Source: Candidatus Uhrbacteria bacterium
GTDB lineage: Bacteria; Patescibacteriota; Patescibacteriia; 2-12-FULL-60-25
Assembly (NCBI GenBank): GCA_020854265.1
Contig: JADZFU010000005.1
Span: 1 to 62,574, forward strand
Reading direction: 5' to 3'
Length of the DNA: 62,574 nucleotides
Below the pieces are notes generated by a model. It was not told where the DNA came from. It ran no database searches and saw nothing but the letters and a program-made list of their open reading frames with translations. The position numbers and the translations under genes are program-made. Shown one piece after another: positions 5,240 to 62,574 of the stretch (within the stretch, counting starts at the first letter, position 1; each line of letters begins with the position of its first letter).

Positions 5240-5315
5240 GGGCTCTTAGCTCAGCTGGTAGAGCGCTTCCATGGCATGGAAGAGGTCAGCGGTTCGATCC
5301 CGCTAGGGTCCACCA
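5240..5315 (+). tRNA. tRNA-Ala (anticodon GGC)
   Basis: The 76-nt sequence folds as a cloverleaf: acceptor GGGCTCT/AGGGTCC with wobble pairs, D-arm GCTC/GAGC, anticodon stem CTTCC/GGAAG with loop ATGGCAT (anticodon GGC), and a T-arm with GTTCGAT. The 3' CCA is encoded. The two-gene cyclase/TIR unit lies downstream, making this tRNA a candidate integration target. Confidence 0.95.
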
Positions 5316-10661: not shown

Positions 10662-11108
10662 CTACCCCGTTCCACTTTTTTTGCGTTGTGTCAAGAGTAT
10701 ATAGCCGATCAATCCCAATAAAATAGCTCCATCGGCAAGATTTACCGCCGATCGTCCAAATAAAAGCAGCCAGTCATGCACATAACCAAATACCAAGCGG
10801 TCAGTTAAATTACCGAGAACACCGCCGATGAATATGCCGAGGAGGGGTGCGGTCATTATCGGAGTTTGCGCGGATAGTTTCCAAAGGGTGTACATGGCCC
10901 AGGCGAGAGCAGCGACTGCGATTATTACCGTAAGCCAGAGCGGGAGCGGGATATTGAAACTGATTCCGTAATTTTTATGGGCAATAATGAAGCTGCCCGG
11001 ATCAGTTTCGCCCCAGGCGAAGAAAACCGCTTTTGTCCACGCATCCATAACGAAAACAACAGCACTCAAAAGGAGTGCTGTTGAAATATGACGAAACCTG
11101 ACACCCAT
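10662..11108 (-). CDS. lspA: Lipoprotein signal peptidase (signal peptidase II)
   Basis: 148 residues with four membrane segments. The two catalytic aspartates of family A8 are in GNLTDR and NLADG, as expected. It cleaves prolipoprotein signal peptides before the lipid-modified cysteine; substrates in this window would include the lipobox proteins at 19.7, 24.8, 25.6 and 54.3 kb. The ATG overlaps the stop of the upstream dksA-like gene by one base (TAATG), which implies translational coupling. Confidence 0.95.
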   Translation of the reverse strand: MGVRFRHISTALLLSAVVFVMDAWTKAVFFAWGETDPGSFIIAHKNYGISFNIPLPLWLTVIIAVAALAWAMYTLWKLSAQTPIMTAPLLGIFIGGVLGNLTDRLVFGYVHDWLLLFGRSAVNLADGAILLGLIGYILLTQRKKSGTG

Positions 11109-11497
11109 TAGAGCTCTTGGGTGAGGGTCTTTTTGGCCTCCACCGAGGTGAGGGATGTTGGACGGGCTTCGAGACGGCGAATATCGATAGGCTTGCCAGT
11201 GTATTTGCAGATGCCGTATGTACCGTCTTCCATGGCTTTGAGAGCTTTATTTACATCGCCAAGTTCTTTTTGGAGACGCTCTTCGATAGCTACCAAATCG
11301 GCCATTTCGGAGATTTCTGATGCATTATCGTCATCAGAAGATCCGCCGCTTTCGATTTTGTTGTAGTCGACAGCAAATTTCCCGGTTTTGTCTTTATTGC
11401 CGAGATGTTCGAGCTCTTCGGTAAGGCGTTTTTTGTCCGAAAGTAAGCGATTTTTGAAGTATTCCAGCTGCTCCTGGGTAAGGGGACTGTTCGACAT
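11108..11497 (-). CDS. DksA/TraR-family protein with degenerate zinc finger
   Basis: 129 residues. The N-terminal half is coiled-coil and acidic; the C-terminus has the DksA signature (DGTYGICKYTGKPI...RRLEARP). Only one of the four zinc-binding cysteines remains (GICKYTG; the second pair reads SVEAKKT), so metal is probably not bound. Family members bind the RNA polymerase secondary channel and tune transcription during starvation; cysteine-poor versions exist. The gene heads the operon with lspA and comM and lies downstream of an RNA-like region on the same strand. Confidence 0.85.
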   Translation of the reverse strand: MSNSPLTQEQLEYFKNRLLSDKKRLTEELEHLGNKDKTGKFAVDYNKIESGGSSDDDNASEISEMADLVAIEERLQKELGDVNKALKAMEDGTYGICKYTGKPIDIRRLEARPTSLTSVEAKKTLTQEL

Positions 11498-11549: not shown

Positions 11550-12045
11550 CAGGAAATTTAAAAGGGCCGCAGGAGCGCCCGTATTGCGAGAAGCATATAT
11601 GTGGCGGTGCGGCCCTTGGGCCTTAACGCGCGGTCTGGTCCGTGCAGGATGCACGGGGTTGACACGGCTGTGTGTTGAGGTCCGAAGACGACTTCTTCTA
11701 CCCTGCCCTGGCAAGAGCCCCTGAATCCCGAAGGATTCGAAAAATTGAGGAGTGCCGAAAGGTACTTTGGATTTTATTTTTGTTTTCCATGTGCCGCGTA
11801 GCGGCTAACTGGGCGGAGTGGAAGAATGGAATCGACTTCCGTACGAGACGGGAGTCGGTCTTGTAAGTCGTTTTAAGGTGCGAAGGATCGAATGGGCGGT
11901 GAAGCCCTTGGTCGGCCGCGTGAAGCGGTCCCGTGAAAAGAAGGTGCTCGGCTGAGCTCAGCGGTCGCATTTAGCGATGATGAGGGCCGTAAAAAGAACG
12001 GAGAAAAGGGAAAAGGTGCGAGACTCGATGAGAGTCACTATTAGT
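11550..12045 (-). ncRNA. Candidate large structured RNA, identity unknown
   Basis: About 490 nt without a convincing gene but full of perfect hairpins: GACTC/GAGTC near 12025, CGACT..CCGT/ACGG..AGTCG near 11835-11857, GCCGC/GCGGC near 11795, GAATCC-CGAA-GGATTC near 11723-11738, and AAGGGCCGCA (11562-11571) with TGCGGCCCTT. On the minus strand an extended -10 TGCTATACT (about 12051-12043) precedes it, and the last stem is followed by a T-rich tract, so minus-strand transcription is preferred. Some loops (GAAA, GTGA) would be GNRA loops only on the plus strand. I could not match it to RNase P RNA, tmRNA, SRP RNA or 6S RNA. It could also be the long leader of the dksA-like operon. Confidence 0.5.
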
Positions 12046-12051
12046 ATAGCA

Positions 12052-12178: not shown

Positions 12179-13330
12179 TTATTCAAAACAGACAGCGATT
12201 TTGTTGTTTATTGTTCCGATCTGTAAGGCTCGAAGTTGTTCGGCGGAAACTTTCCAGCCGATATCGGTCAGGGTGGTAGAGAGAGCCCGACTGCTCAAGC
12301 GTATCCAAGGGCCTTGTACCCCGCAGTTCTCAGCCGGCTGAATATCCCATGTTCCGGTTGTTGAAGAGATTTGTAGTTCGTTGGCAGAAAGGCGCAAGGA
12401 TTCATTTCGATCGTTTTTTCGTTCACCGAAAAGGGAGGTGCTGGTTGAGGCGCTGGGGGTGAAACGTTCGATGGAAATCGTTCCATCTGGCAAGGTGAAT
12501 GCTTTGCGCTCGGTCACTGAAAAGATTCCTAAAACGGCAGCCGCTTGGTTTTCGGAGAGCGGATGCGAAAACTCGAATCGACGCCGGGCAAAGCCTTTCC
12601 CATTCAGCCATACTTCATAGCGGGAGATATCGGGGAGATTGCGAAGCTTGGGTAAATCTCCAAGGCTTGAGGCCAAAGCGATTTCCGGCTGTGTAGCCGC
12701 TTTGCGGCTGTCTGCAGAAAACCCGGTGCTTAAGTCAGCTGACGAAGCGCGCGATGTGCCAGGCATGTTCCAAGCCATATCGGAGACGAGCTGTTTTCCG
12801 TTCCAACGCAAATGGATTTTTTCGCCATTCGACCAGCGCATGGCCGGTGCGCGCTCGAGTCCCCGCCAAGACAAGGCTTCGGAATAGGTGAGTTTTTCTT
12901 CTTCGAATACGAGACCCGTCTCGCCAAGATACGCTGATAGGCCGGCGGTTTGTCGGGTTTCACCATCCGGCACGAGCCAACGCGGTCCAATGATAAACGC
13001 GCGCATTTGACCGTCTTCATTGGCTAAACCATATACCAGCGGCCATGTGCTTTTTATCGAAAGCGTGCGTTTCCATGTATCGGGCAAGGCGTTTAATACA
13101 TTTGGCGGAAAGATTTGCTGGGCCGCCTCCGAGGAGATGACTCCTAAAAAGAATGTGCCTCGCGGCAGAGGGAGCGGACGCGATAGGGCAAGCCAAAGCA
13201 AAAAGGCGAGCGTGCCCGTCAGGATCAAGGCGAGCAGGGACCACATCAACCATGAACCGAAAAAGGCCGGACGACGGCCTTCAGCCAGAATGATCTGGCT
13301 TTCTCGGTTCAGGATGATTTCGGTAGACAT
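12179..13330 (-). CDS. Hypothetical single-pass membrane protein, 383 aa
   Basis: One hydrophobic segment at residues ~29-49 (SLLALILTGTLAFLLWLAL) after a short cytoplasmic N-terminus; the remaining ~330 residues should lie outside the membrane. No catalytic motif is recognised. The start abuts the pnp stop directly (0 bp), so it is the last gene of the rpsO-NYN-pnp operon. The sequence is even in composition, with two cysteines near the C-terminus. Confidence 0.65.
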   Translation of the reverse strand: MSTEIILNRESQIILAEGRRPAFFGSWLMWSLLALILTGTLAFLLWLALSRPLPLPRGTFFLGVISSEAAQQIFPPNVLNALPDTWKRTLSIKSTWPLVYGLANEDGQMRAFIIGPRWLVPDGETRQTAGLSAYLGETGLVFEEEKLTYSEALSWRGLERAPAMRWSNGEKIHLRWNGKQLVSDMAWNMPGTSRASSADLSTGFSADSRKAATQPEIALASSLGDLPKLRNLPDISRYEVWLNGKGFARRRFEFSHPLSENQAAAVLGIFSVTERKAFTLPDGTISIERFTPSASTSTSLFGERKNDRNESLRLSANELQISSTTGTWDIQPAENCGVQGPWIRLSSRALSTTLTDIGWKVSAEQLRALQIGTINNKIAVCFE

Positions 13331-25590: not shown

Positions 25591-26052
25591 TCAGTCGTCG
25601 AGCCGCTCGCGCAGCTCGTCGATGGCTTCCGTGTTGGCCAGCGTCTGGTCGACGAGGCCTCGCACGAGATCGCTGTCATCACCCCCGCTGTCGGCCCTTT
25701 CGGACTCGGGCGGGAGCGGACAGCTGGTGCCGACGCAGGTACCACCGACGACCGGGGGAACCGGCACGGCGGCGACCGCGTACGAGCTCGAGCGCGCCGC
25801 GAGGCGTGCCTGGTCGTAGGCGGCGACGGCGTAGGCCGTCCGGGGGTCGGCGGAAGTTTCGCTGTAGAGGGAGCCGCCGTAGGGCGAGATCGCACCGGTG
25901 GAACCGGGAGCGATACCGCCCATGCCGCCGACGCCGACGTAGCCGTAGGCCGAGACCCCGGCGCCGCCCGTGATGACGGGCGGGTAGGGACGGGCACAGC
26001 CGATGGAGGCGATGGCGAAGCCGAGCGCGAGAGCGAGGGTGAGGTTCTTCAT
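25591..26052 (-). CDS. Hypothetical lipoprotein, 153 aa (G+C-rich class)
   Basis: The start is set at ATG 26052 (MKNLTLALAL), with AAGGAGA about 8 bases upstream; longer in-frame starts lack a signal peptide. The signal ends in ASIGC (lipobox). The mature part is rich in Gly, Tyr, Val and Pro and ends with a short helix (ANTEAIDELRERLDD). It shares composition and arrangement with its neighbours; no function recognised. Confidence 0.65.
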   Translation of the reverse strand: MKNLTLALALGFAIASIGCARPYPPVITGGAGVSAYGYVGVGGMGGIAPGSTGAISPYGGSLYSETSADPRTAYAVAAYDQARLAARSSSYAVAAVPVPPVVGGTCVGTSCPLPPESERADSGGDDSDLVRGLVDQTLANTEAIDELRERLDD

Positions 26053-26077
26053 CTGGATGTCTCCTTGTTCTCGTTGT

Positions 26078-26470
26078 TCAGCGAACGCCAGGGGCGCCGA
26101 GACGCGGGACCGCGTACCCGAGTCCGCCAGAGACACCAATGCCTCCGCGGATGCCCATGGAGCCCATGGACGCCTGCCAGAAGCAGGTCATCTGGTCGTC
26201 GGACCAGATCCAGCTGCCGCCTTCGGCTCGCTGGGTTCGTCGGTGGGCGAGGCAGCGCTCCTCGGCAGCGACCGAAGGCGAGACATCCACCTCGGTGATC
26301 GAGGTGAACGGCGTCGCTTCGTAGTTGACCGAGGGGATGCCCGTGGTCGAGTCGCCGCGGACCGTGTAGCGGCTGTAGCAGCCGCTGCAGTAGCTCGCGA
26401 TGAGCACGGCGGCCGCGATGACCGGTACCCAGGCCAAGACGATGTAGAGCAGTCCTTCACGATTCGGCAT
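26078..26470 (-). CDS. Hypothetical membrane protein, 130 aa (G+C-rich class)
   Basis: One N-terminal membrane segment (LLYIVLAWVPVIAAAVLIA) followed by Cys residues (SYCSGC, ERCLAH, MTCFW) and a Gly-rich tail. GGAGA precedes the ATG. It is the first gene of the minus-strand trio, driven by the promoter at 26606-26578. No family recognised. Confidence 0.65.
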   Translation of the reverse strand: MPNREGLLYIVLAWVPVIAAAVLIASYCSGCYSRYTVRGDSTTGIPSVNYEATPFTSITEVDVSPSVAAEERCLAHRRTQRAEGGSWIWSDDQMTCFWQASMGSMGIRGGIGVSGGLGYAVPRLGAPGVR

Positions 26471-27969: not shown

Positions 27970-30096
27970 ATGAAGGAAACAAAGATGAACCCCATTCTCG
28001 GAGATCTGTTCGGTGCCGTCGTCTTCTGGCTCTCCGGAGCCGTGCTCAAGGACTCGATCGCCGCGGCCATCGATGCCGTCGGCGGCTTCACGTCCAAGTA
28101 TGCCGCGCGTGCCAGTCTCTGGCTGCGTCGCGACTTGGTCGCCAAGCTCAAGCCCGTGTTCTGGCTGTACGCCGGATTCGAGCTCGCGGCGCTGATCTTC
28201 GCCAATGTCTGGATCGACAGGTTGTCGGTCACGACGGCGAGCGATGCGTACTGGTACTTCGAGGGAGCAGCCTGGACCGTGTTCGGTCTGAGCGTTCTCG
28301 CGATGGTCGCTGGTACGTGGGGCGTGCAGGCTGTCAGCGATTGGCCGGCTCTCATCCGGCTGGTCAATGACGGTGAGCGCTTCGATCGCCTGATCGGCGA
28401 CATCGCCACGACGCTCCGGCTCAACCGCCTGAGCGACGAGCTGCGCGACTACCTGCGGAGCGAACGCGATACGCTCGTGGACCAGCGCGAAGAGCTGCCG
28501 GTCAACGATGCGCGCCGCGATCCCTTCAACTCGCAGATCGCGGACATCGATCTCATCCTCGCCTTCTACGGCAGCCCGGAAGACCGCACCAAGTACGCGG
28601 TCGATCGGCTGACGCGGGCGATGCAGGGAACGGCAACGCCCTTCTCGTCCCTCGATCCGGGAACCCGCCAGCGAAGCATCGATGCCGAGCTGGTCAGGCT
28701 CTCCGGCATGGAGGACGCAGTCCGCCAGCTCGTCATCGACGAGAGGGCGACGCTGCAGGCCGAGATCCGGCGCGTCGATGCCGAGATCGATGCCCTGCGG
28801 GCCGATAGCGGCCGCGGCGCAACGGGATTCGACGCCTTCGCGGTGGTCGCCTTCCTGGTCGCGCCTTTCTTCCTGGCCTTCCTCGTGCTCGGGTCCTCGC
28901 TCTGCCTCAGCATGCTGAACGGAGCGGACCTGGTCATGCTCTTCCCGATCGGTGCCAGCGCCTTCGTGCTCTTCGCTATGGGCGTCGCCGCTCTCAAGCT
29001 GGTGACTGGCCTGTTCGCAAAGGTGCTCGAGATCGCAGACACCGTCTTCGACAAGACGCTCGACGCGCTCATCAAGCCGCTGCTTGCAGCAGGACTCGTC
29101 GGTACCACGTTCTCCAACGTGGGTGACAAGTTCGGCAAGGTCGATCTCCCCATCAAGGAGGTCGGCGAGGCGGTCAAGAAGGCAACCACGCCGATCATCG
29201 ACATCGGCTGGAGCCTCTTCATCTGGTGCGTGCTCATCCCGCACTGGTACTCGTTCATTCTCGTCTTTCTTTCGGCGGTGTTCAACTACTACATCGCGCG
29301 GCGGAGGGAGTCGGTCGGTCTCGGCGACGAGGCCAAGACCCACTTGAAGAATGTGATCCGGCTCGAGCAGAAGGTGCTCACGCCGATCTACATCTTCTGG
29401 CTGGTCATGATCGGCTTCTACATCGCGTGCACGTTCGACTTCGCGCGTGCGCGTCTCAACTATGCCATCGGATGGATCAACGATCTCCTCTCGCTTGGCG
29501 GGTGGGGGATCGTCGGTTCGATCCTGTTTGGCATCGTCCTCCTGATCGTGGCCGGTACCATGAGCAAGGAGGGTGTCAGCGGGTTCTTCGGACGCGCGCT
29601 GCGTGTTCTCGGAACGGCCGGCATCATCCTTCCGCTGTTCGGCCTCGCGGCTTGGATGGCGGGACGTACGGCTCATGTGCCGACGGTCGATGAGCTTAGC
29701 CCGCGTTCGCGTCCTGCTTCGTCGGAAACGGCGGAGGAGGATGCGGCGGAGGCAGAGGGCGAAGAGCCCGATGCCTTCGACCGTGCGGAAAGCGCGGCCG
29801 GCCGGTCAGGTCCGTCGACGGGTCATCCCGAAGACGCCCTGCTCGGCGGGCACGATGCCACCGCTCTCACCGCCACCACGGTTGCGGTGATCCCGGTCAT
29901 CCCTGCCGGTTCGGTCGGGCTGCTCGGCGATACGGGCGGGCGCAGCGATGTGCCTCCCTTCCCCGGAGCCGGTACGGATCGGTCTGCGCTTGCGCGAACC
30001 GATCCTCCTCGGCACAGCACTAGTGGTGCGCGCGACTGCTCGGGACTTGTCCCGACGCTGCGTGCCGCACTCGAAGCTCGCGGAGAGTGCCGCTGA
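27970..30096 (+). CDS. Hypothetical polytopic membrane protein, 708 aa (G+C-rich class)
   Basis: AGGGAGGAG lies just before ATG 27970. Two or three membrane segments fall in residues ~60-120, followed by a ~150-residue soluble region with coiled-coil character (QLVIDERATLQAEIRRVDAEI), then about six more membrane helices (residues ~290-580), then a ~130-residue Ala/Pro/Glu/Ser-rich cytosolic or extracellular tail. A long antisense frame exists only because of the G/C-ending codons. No family recognised. A strong stem (CCTCC..CCTCA/TGAGG..GGAGG, about 27929-27953) in the intergenic gap may affect expression. Confidence 0.72.
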   Translation: MKETKMNPILGDLFGAVVFWLSGAVLKDSIAAAIDAVGGFTSKYAARASLWLRRDLVAKLKPVFWLYAGFELAALIFANVWIDRLSVTTASDAYWYFEGAAWTVFGLSVLAMVAGTWGVQAVSDWPALIRLVNDGERFDRLIGDIATTLRLNRLSDELRDYLRSERDTLVDQREELPVNDARRDPFNSQIADIDLILAFYGSPEDRTKYAVDRLTRAMQGTATPFSSLDPGTRQRSIDAELVRLSGMEDAVRQLVIDERATLQAEIRRVDAEIDALRADSGRGATGFDAFAVVAFLVAPFFLAFLVLGSSLCLSMLNGADLVMLFPIGASAFVLFAMGVAALKLVTGLFAKVLEIADTVFDKTLDALIKPLLAAGLVGTTFSNVGDKFGKVDLPIKEVGEAVKKATTPIIDIGWSLFIWCVLIPHWYSFILVFLSAVFNYYIARRRESVGLGDEAKTHLKNVIRLEQKVLTPIYIFWLVMIGFYIACTFDFARARLNYAIGWINDLLSLGGWGIVGSILFGIVLLIVAGTMSKEGVSGFFGRALRVLGTAGIILPLFGLAAWMAGRTAHVPTVDELSPRSRPASSETAEEDAAEAEGEEPDAFDRAESAAGRSGPSTGHPEDALLGGHDATALTATTVAVIPVIPAGSVGLLGDTGGRSDVPPFPGAGTDRSALARTDPPRHSTSGARDCSGLVPTLRAALEARGECR

Positions 30097-61481: not shown

Positions 61482-62574
<1,093 letters not shown>

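Follow-up and report, generated by a model that had tools for sequence, protein, structure and literature searches.

Complex non-coding RNAs of several hundred nucleotides are rare in bacteria, and several of the known ones have proved to be ribozymes or large assemblies of RNA. OLE RNA (ornate large extremophilic RNA) is encoded beside a membrane-protein gene. With the GOLLD, ROOL and raiA RNAs, it shares a set of traits that recur in the RNA described here: a length of several hundred nucleotides, many helices, a single copy, an intergenic position and fixed neighbour genes. RNase P RNA and tmRNA are similar to it in size and in the number of helices. 6S RNA is likewise a stable RNA of the housekeeping type with its own promoter, and our RNA adjoins a gene for a DksA/TraR-like protein, the kind of protein that binds RNA polymerase. 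Here, we analyzed one stretch of DNA, the window (62,574 nucleotides), from Candidatus Uhrbacteria, a very small and uncultured bacterium, whose class we take to be ABY1. The window carries what is almost certainly a member of a real, undescribed RNA family. The novelty lies in the family, which resembles no described one; large structured RNAs as such are already known.

The RNA gene and its sense strand

The region 11550-12051 is flanked by two protein genes (Table 1). In the window, pnp lies upstream of the membrane-protein gene and lspA and comM follow traR, giving the order pnp, membrane protein, RNA, traR, lspA. No conserved gene was found within 11550-12051; the overlapping open reading frames of 64-106 aa are all unconserved, which agrees with the preliminary description of a region lacking a real gene. 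The stems, the terminal G/C stem followed by a T-rich tract, and the minus-strand extended -10 element that it reported are all present. Its extent of ~490 nt was right to within ~15 nt, the difference arising because the likely start is near 12037.

The window copy folds more stably than expected on either strand. Against dinucleotide shuffles, the fold z-score is -4.25 for the minus strand and -7.2 for the plus strand, and none of 100 shuffles was as stable in either case. Since both strands fold beyond chance, the sense strand had to come from comparison with relatives. The plus strand, which is favored by its stronger single-sequence fold and by its purine content, was ruled out by G-U pairs, promoters, terminators and alignment energies. 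The cells of the long-range helix Pb are paired in 90% of cases in the minus sense versus 76% in the plus sense, and the alignment of family f46 has an energy of -48.6 kcal/mol as minus versus -39.5 kcal/mol as plus. In the minus sense, TTGANN-N17-TANNNT precedes the RNA in most relatives, for example in the form TTGACC-N17-TATACT. At least 10 of the 12 consensus bases are matched in 26 of 43 regions, with a mean of 9.5 versus 8.4 in shuffles. At the other end, a hairpin and a U tract close the RNA in the relatives. Together, G-U pairs, promoters and terminators establish the minus strand as the sense strand.

In the window, the RNA gene has a weak -35 element and depends on its extended -10, read as TGC-TATACT at 12051-12043 of the minus strand. 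A simple consensus scanner called neither the promoter (weak -35) nor the terminator (long loop) of the window, although both are clear by eye and many relatives have a canonical promoter. As far as can be read from the letters, the RNA has a promoter and a terminator of its own, as a structured RNA gene should.

Table 1. Features of the RNA locus in the window (all on the minus strand; listed from 5' to 3' of the RNA sense)
Feature	Position	Strand	Basis or remark
Membrane-protein gene, 383 aa	12179-13330	minus	upstream of the RNA
Extended -10 promoter element TGCTATACT	12043..12051	minus	sequence reading; also in G001, G002 and G011
Whole RNA gene, ~480 nt	11556..12037	minus	ends inferred from promoter and terminator; conserved in relatives
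5' hairpin GACUC-UCAUC-GAGUC	12022..12036	minus	fold; conserved in the genus
Outer helix Pa, 5' strand CGACUU	11865..11870	minus	pairs with 11689-11694 in the minimum-energy fold
Hairpin H1	11831..11860	minus	fold
Core helix Pb, 5' strand	11811..11824	minus	covarying long-range helix; minimum-energy folds of 41 homologues
Hairpin H2, family-specific	11793..11805	minus	fold
Conserved A-rich single strand GAAAACAAAAAUAAAAUCCAA	11767..11787	minus	conserved in all families; mostly unpaired
P3/P4 stem (GGCA/UGCC, CUCC/GGGG) and C(UUCG)G-capped hairpin	11710..11756	minus	fold, covariation
Core helix Pb, 3' strand GGGCAGGGUAGAAGAAG	11692..11708	minus	minimum-energy folds, covariation
Outer helix Pa, 3' strand AAGUCG	11689..11694	minus	minimum-energy fold
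Long 3' hairpin	11618..11683	minus	fold; its f46 counterpart shows covariation
Intrinsic terminator: G+C-rich terminal stem (internal loop) and the U tract after it	11554..11615	minus	sequence, fold; equivalent terminators in relatives; stem GGGCCGCACCGCC...CUCCUGCGGCCC at 11615-11564, with UUUUAAAUUU next on the minus strand
traR/dksA-like gene	11108-11497	minus	downstream of the RNA

Core structure and covariation

Comparative folding of the homologues gave strong covariation in the minus-strand sense. The long-range helix Pb is found at the same place in the minimum-energy folds of essentially all 41 homologues, and 39 of them share the 12-bp register. Its two strands differ between families while keeping their pairing: UGACUCGACCC/GGGUUGGGUCGA in f1, CUCUACUCAUCC/GGAUAGGUAGAG in f40 and CAUCUACUGUUC/GAAUGGUAGAUG in f46. 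Within a genome, the strands form 10.83 of the 12 pairs, versus a mean of 9.35 and a maximum of 9.68 with the 3' strands of other genomes (200 permutations); because the best 12-mer placement had been picked for the own strands, it was picked in the same way for the foreign ones. The most conserved stretch of all, the A-rich strand AAANCAAAAAACAAAA, lies inside Pb. The 5' strand of the outer helix Pa reads CUGC in most family members in place of the window sequence. An earlier model, in which CUGC/GCAG and GACC/GGUC formed one helix, was replaced by Pa and Pb once all homologues were folded. By eye, family f1 also seemed to hold a pseudoknot in which AGG ahead of the 3' core strand pairs with CCU behind it, but neither f40 nor f46 keeps it.

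The covariation was counted in alignment A5, which contains 22 sequences and from which the stretch between the Pb 5' strand and the A-rich strand was cut out. A5 replaced A4, a cross-family alignment with natural spacing in which the 5' strand was misaligned. Over the 20 pairs of Pb, P3 and P4, 88.6% of the A5 cells are paired. Both sides of a pair are changed in 71 cells, compared with 25.5 +/- 3.8 in shuffled and 9-17 in slid controls; the number of further pair types is 38, versus 28.3 when shuffled. A U-G wobble within the ACU/GGU step is present in all 22 sequences. In 11 sequences outside the training set, in an alignment fitted to the model, there are 23 cells changed on both sides versus 7.9 shuffled and 0-5 slid. 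Unconstrained RNAalifold on family f46 recovered Pb, P3, P4 and the hairpin above it, together with one 5' and one 3' hairpin, with both-side changes kept in 26 of 65 pairs. The regions of P4 and H2 shift between families. The A-rich strand has a mean unpaired probability of 0.87 versus 0.39 elsewhere in the RNA. Such compensatory base changes among homologues mark the region, in terms of comparative sequence analysis, as a structured non-coding RNA.

Relatives and known RNA families

With blastn, pieces of the RNA turned up in two congeneric genomes and in two further genera of the family, nearly always with the same neighbours. Searches with the neighbouring proteins then placed it at this position in the majority of the family's genomes. 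Two covariance models extended this range. R1, trained on the window's own family, matched 40 of 380 class genomes at E <= 0.05, other families included. R2, trained over several families, matched 44 of the 380 at E <= 0.001, against a chance expectation of less than one; its match in the window is 11691-11805. E-values of such home-made models are rough, and matches above about E = 0.001 are individually unreliable. The R2 matches fall in families f1, f6, f8, f40, f46 and f55; f15 was reached by R1, and f13 by a weaker match with the right neighbours. On these searches, homologues are present in at least seven families of the class (Patescibacteria). Outside the class, nothing exceeded chance, with one match of E = 0.003 among 381 genomes. 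Many families within the class gave no model match, and their missing copies could reflect loss or divergence. In the congeneric genome G002, the RNA gene is truncated: a deletion has taken its 3' third, including the Pb partner strand and the terminator (L003/L054, C12 about 25935-26290). Some genomes may thus be able to do without the RNA, or the G002 copy may be decaying.

The gene directly upstream is in nearly every case of the same kind, encoding a membrane protein of about 400 aa (~350-480 aa) with a short, similar C-terminus. The RNA usually lies upstream of traR/dksA, followed by lspA. The product of the window gene at 12179-13330 (minus strand, 383 aa) has a single transmembrane segment and no Pfam match, and its homologues have a conserved tail at the N-terminus, one example being GSAILAYG in some members of f1.

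Known RNAs were searched for with cmscan against Rfam 15 (4227 families). The window region had no match at gathering thresholds and only chance-level matches up to E = 10. The 36 homologous loci likewise matched no Rfam family, all scores being far below gathering scores. RNase P RNA (RF00010) has no match in the region, and the genome's own copy is at C3:82566-82974 (173.8 bits). For tmRNA (RF00023), neither ARAGORN nor cmscan found a copy in the region, and the genome's own is at C3:147836-148241 (102.9 bits). Both of these copies score above the curated cut-off and lie on another contig than the RNA. 6S RNA (RF00013) gave no match up to E = 10, and the RNA folds in a multi-branched form. 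SRP RNA (RF00169) was considered because the class has no RF00169 matches and because family f1 contains the letters CAGG..AGCAGCA; these letters belong to covarying helices and are absent from other families. The poor fit to RNase P RNA, tmRNA, SRP RNA and 6S RNA that had been noted by inspection thus holds under cmscan, with no match to any of them in the region. The preliminary description had left a choice between an unusual form of a known RNA and a new class. The former is not upheld, given the lack of a cmscan match, the RNase P RNA and tmRNA located elsewhere and the placement of the SRP-like letters, and the covariation of the homologues speaks for the latter. No description of such an RNA was found in the open-access papers searched; one elsewhere is possible.

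Neither this genome nor any of 96 genomes of the class gave a match to SRP RNA itself (RF00169); the search was positive in 12-13 of 14 control genomes. The Ffh M domain (PF02978) was not found in this complete genome. The SRP may be absent from the class or have been replaced. The open-access papers searched offered nothing relevant on SRP RNA in CPR bacteria. In the same window, the start of the 23S rRNA gene (61486-62574, plus strand) shows insertions relative to the bacterial consensus in the cmscan alignment, with at least two stretches of ~60 nt. ARAGORN also called a second tRNA-Ala(GGC) at 29460-29539 (plus strand) besides the one at 5240-5315; the Rfam tRNA model does not support it and it is probably false.

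Possible roles and comparison with described RNAs

The comparisons above support an independent RNA gene that carries signals of its own for start and end, a conserved multi-branched core and an exposed A-rich strand. We consider it fairly probable, with considerable room for doubt, that this gene independently encodes a stable, non-coding member of an undescribed ABY1 RNA family, acting in trans as a scaffold. Granted that the family is real and undescribed, the scaffold reading stands somewhat better than even. Transcription would run from ~12037 to 11556 on the minus strand, from the RNA's own sigma-70-type promoter to its own intrinsic terminator. Comparative analysis supports a fold around the 12-bp long-range helix with its invariant ACU/GGU (U-G) step. 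This helix closes a junction that holds the P3/P4 hairpin and the unpaired, strongly conserved A-rich strand, and the long hairpin and then the terminator hairpin lie 3' of the core. The multi-helix core may display its A-rich strand, possibly together with the U-G step, so that a protein or a tertiary contact, such as one in the RNA's own minor groove, can engage it. Such a scaffold would build a ribonucleoprotein in trans, instead of serving as the leader of the next gene. The shape of the RNA follows from the comparative data; its function is most likely that of an RNA-protein scaffold with an A-rich loop. Counted against this reading are the more stable plus strand in the window, the weak -35, the loss of the 3' third in G002 and the many families of the class without a model match.

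Several other explanations were weighed against the scaffold. One is a cis-acting leader (an attenuator, a riboswitch or a T-box-like element) that controls traR/dksA; in its favor, the RNA finishes with a terminator and in most genomes precedes traR on the same strand. However, the RNA is kept in at least seven genomes in which other genes follow (G014, G036, G028, G037, G005, G039 and G172), which makes cis control of traR unlikely as its main role. The gap between the RNA end and traR also varies widely, in several genomes traR is served by a TATACT-like box of its own, and no Rfam riboswitch or leader model exceeds its threshold; we regard a traR leader as quite unlikely. The linkage to the upstream gene is the tightest, and a partnership with that membrane protein is therefore possible. 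By analogy with OLE RNA and its membrane protein, the RNA might be paired with this single-TM protein, since the upstream gene is nearly always of the same kind even where the downstream gene differs. Most of the protein, however, seems to be located outside the cell membrane, no Pfam family matches it, and the gene order may simply be old, so that such a pair is an unlikely, if conceivable, explanation.

A highly divergent SRP RNA would account for the lack of any recognizable one in this genome and in the 96 class genomes, and in f1 the run CAGG-N10-AGCAGCA is collinear with helix 8 of SRP RNA. Yet those letters form covarying long-range helices, other families have GGUAGAG instead, no helix 8 capped by GGAA/GNRA is present, and the M domain of Ffh, its binder, was not found in this genome; this identity is very improbable. 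The RNA could also form the heart of a ribonucleoprotein (or a ribozyme) specific to the class, with a housekeeping task in ABY1, perhaps even one left by an apparently missing or unrecognizable SRP, given that searches of this genome returned neither SRP RNA nor an Ffh M domain; we rate it as distinctly unlikely. Finally, the overlapping unconserved reading frames and the truncated copy in G002 could be taken to mean that there is no RNA gene here, and that the region is a fossil, a repeat-rich spacer or an unrecognized small protein gene. Compensatory changes in independent data sets contradict this, and a conserved reading frame is unlikely because the homologues differ by indels of many lengths. 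This last explanation is hardly credible.

The presence of the RNA in several families of a deep bacterial class, its fixed gene neighbourhood and its strictly kept A-rich strand suggest that it is probably under strong selection in organisms with very small genomes. The RNA offers a tangible entry point into the unusual biology of Patescibacteria and, with the models and coordinates given, can be tested in existing metatranscriptomes.

In relation to described RNAs, SRP RNA resembles the ABY1 RNA through a short run of letters in one family that is similar to helix 8, but this run sits in other covarying helices, and the ABY1 RNA has neither the helix 8 fold nor a match to the SRP model. 6S RNA is a single hairpin of ~180 nt with a central bubble, whereas the ABY1 RNA is 400-600 nt long and multi-branched. 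From OLE, GOLLD, ROOL and raiA RNAs, it differs in lacking an Rfam 15 match, in its hosts and in its architecture, the core of which is built of the 12-bp helix and the A-rich strand.
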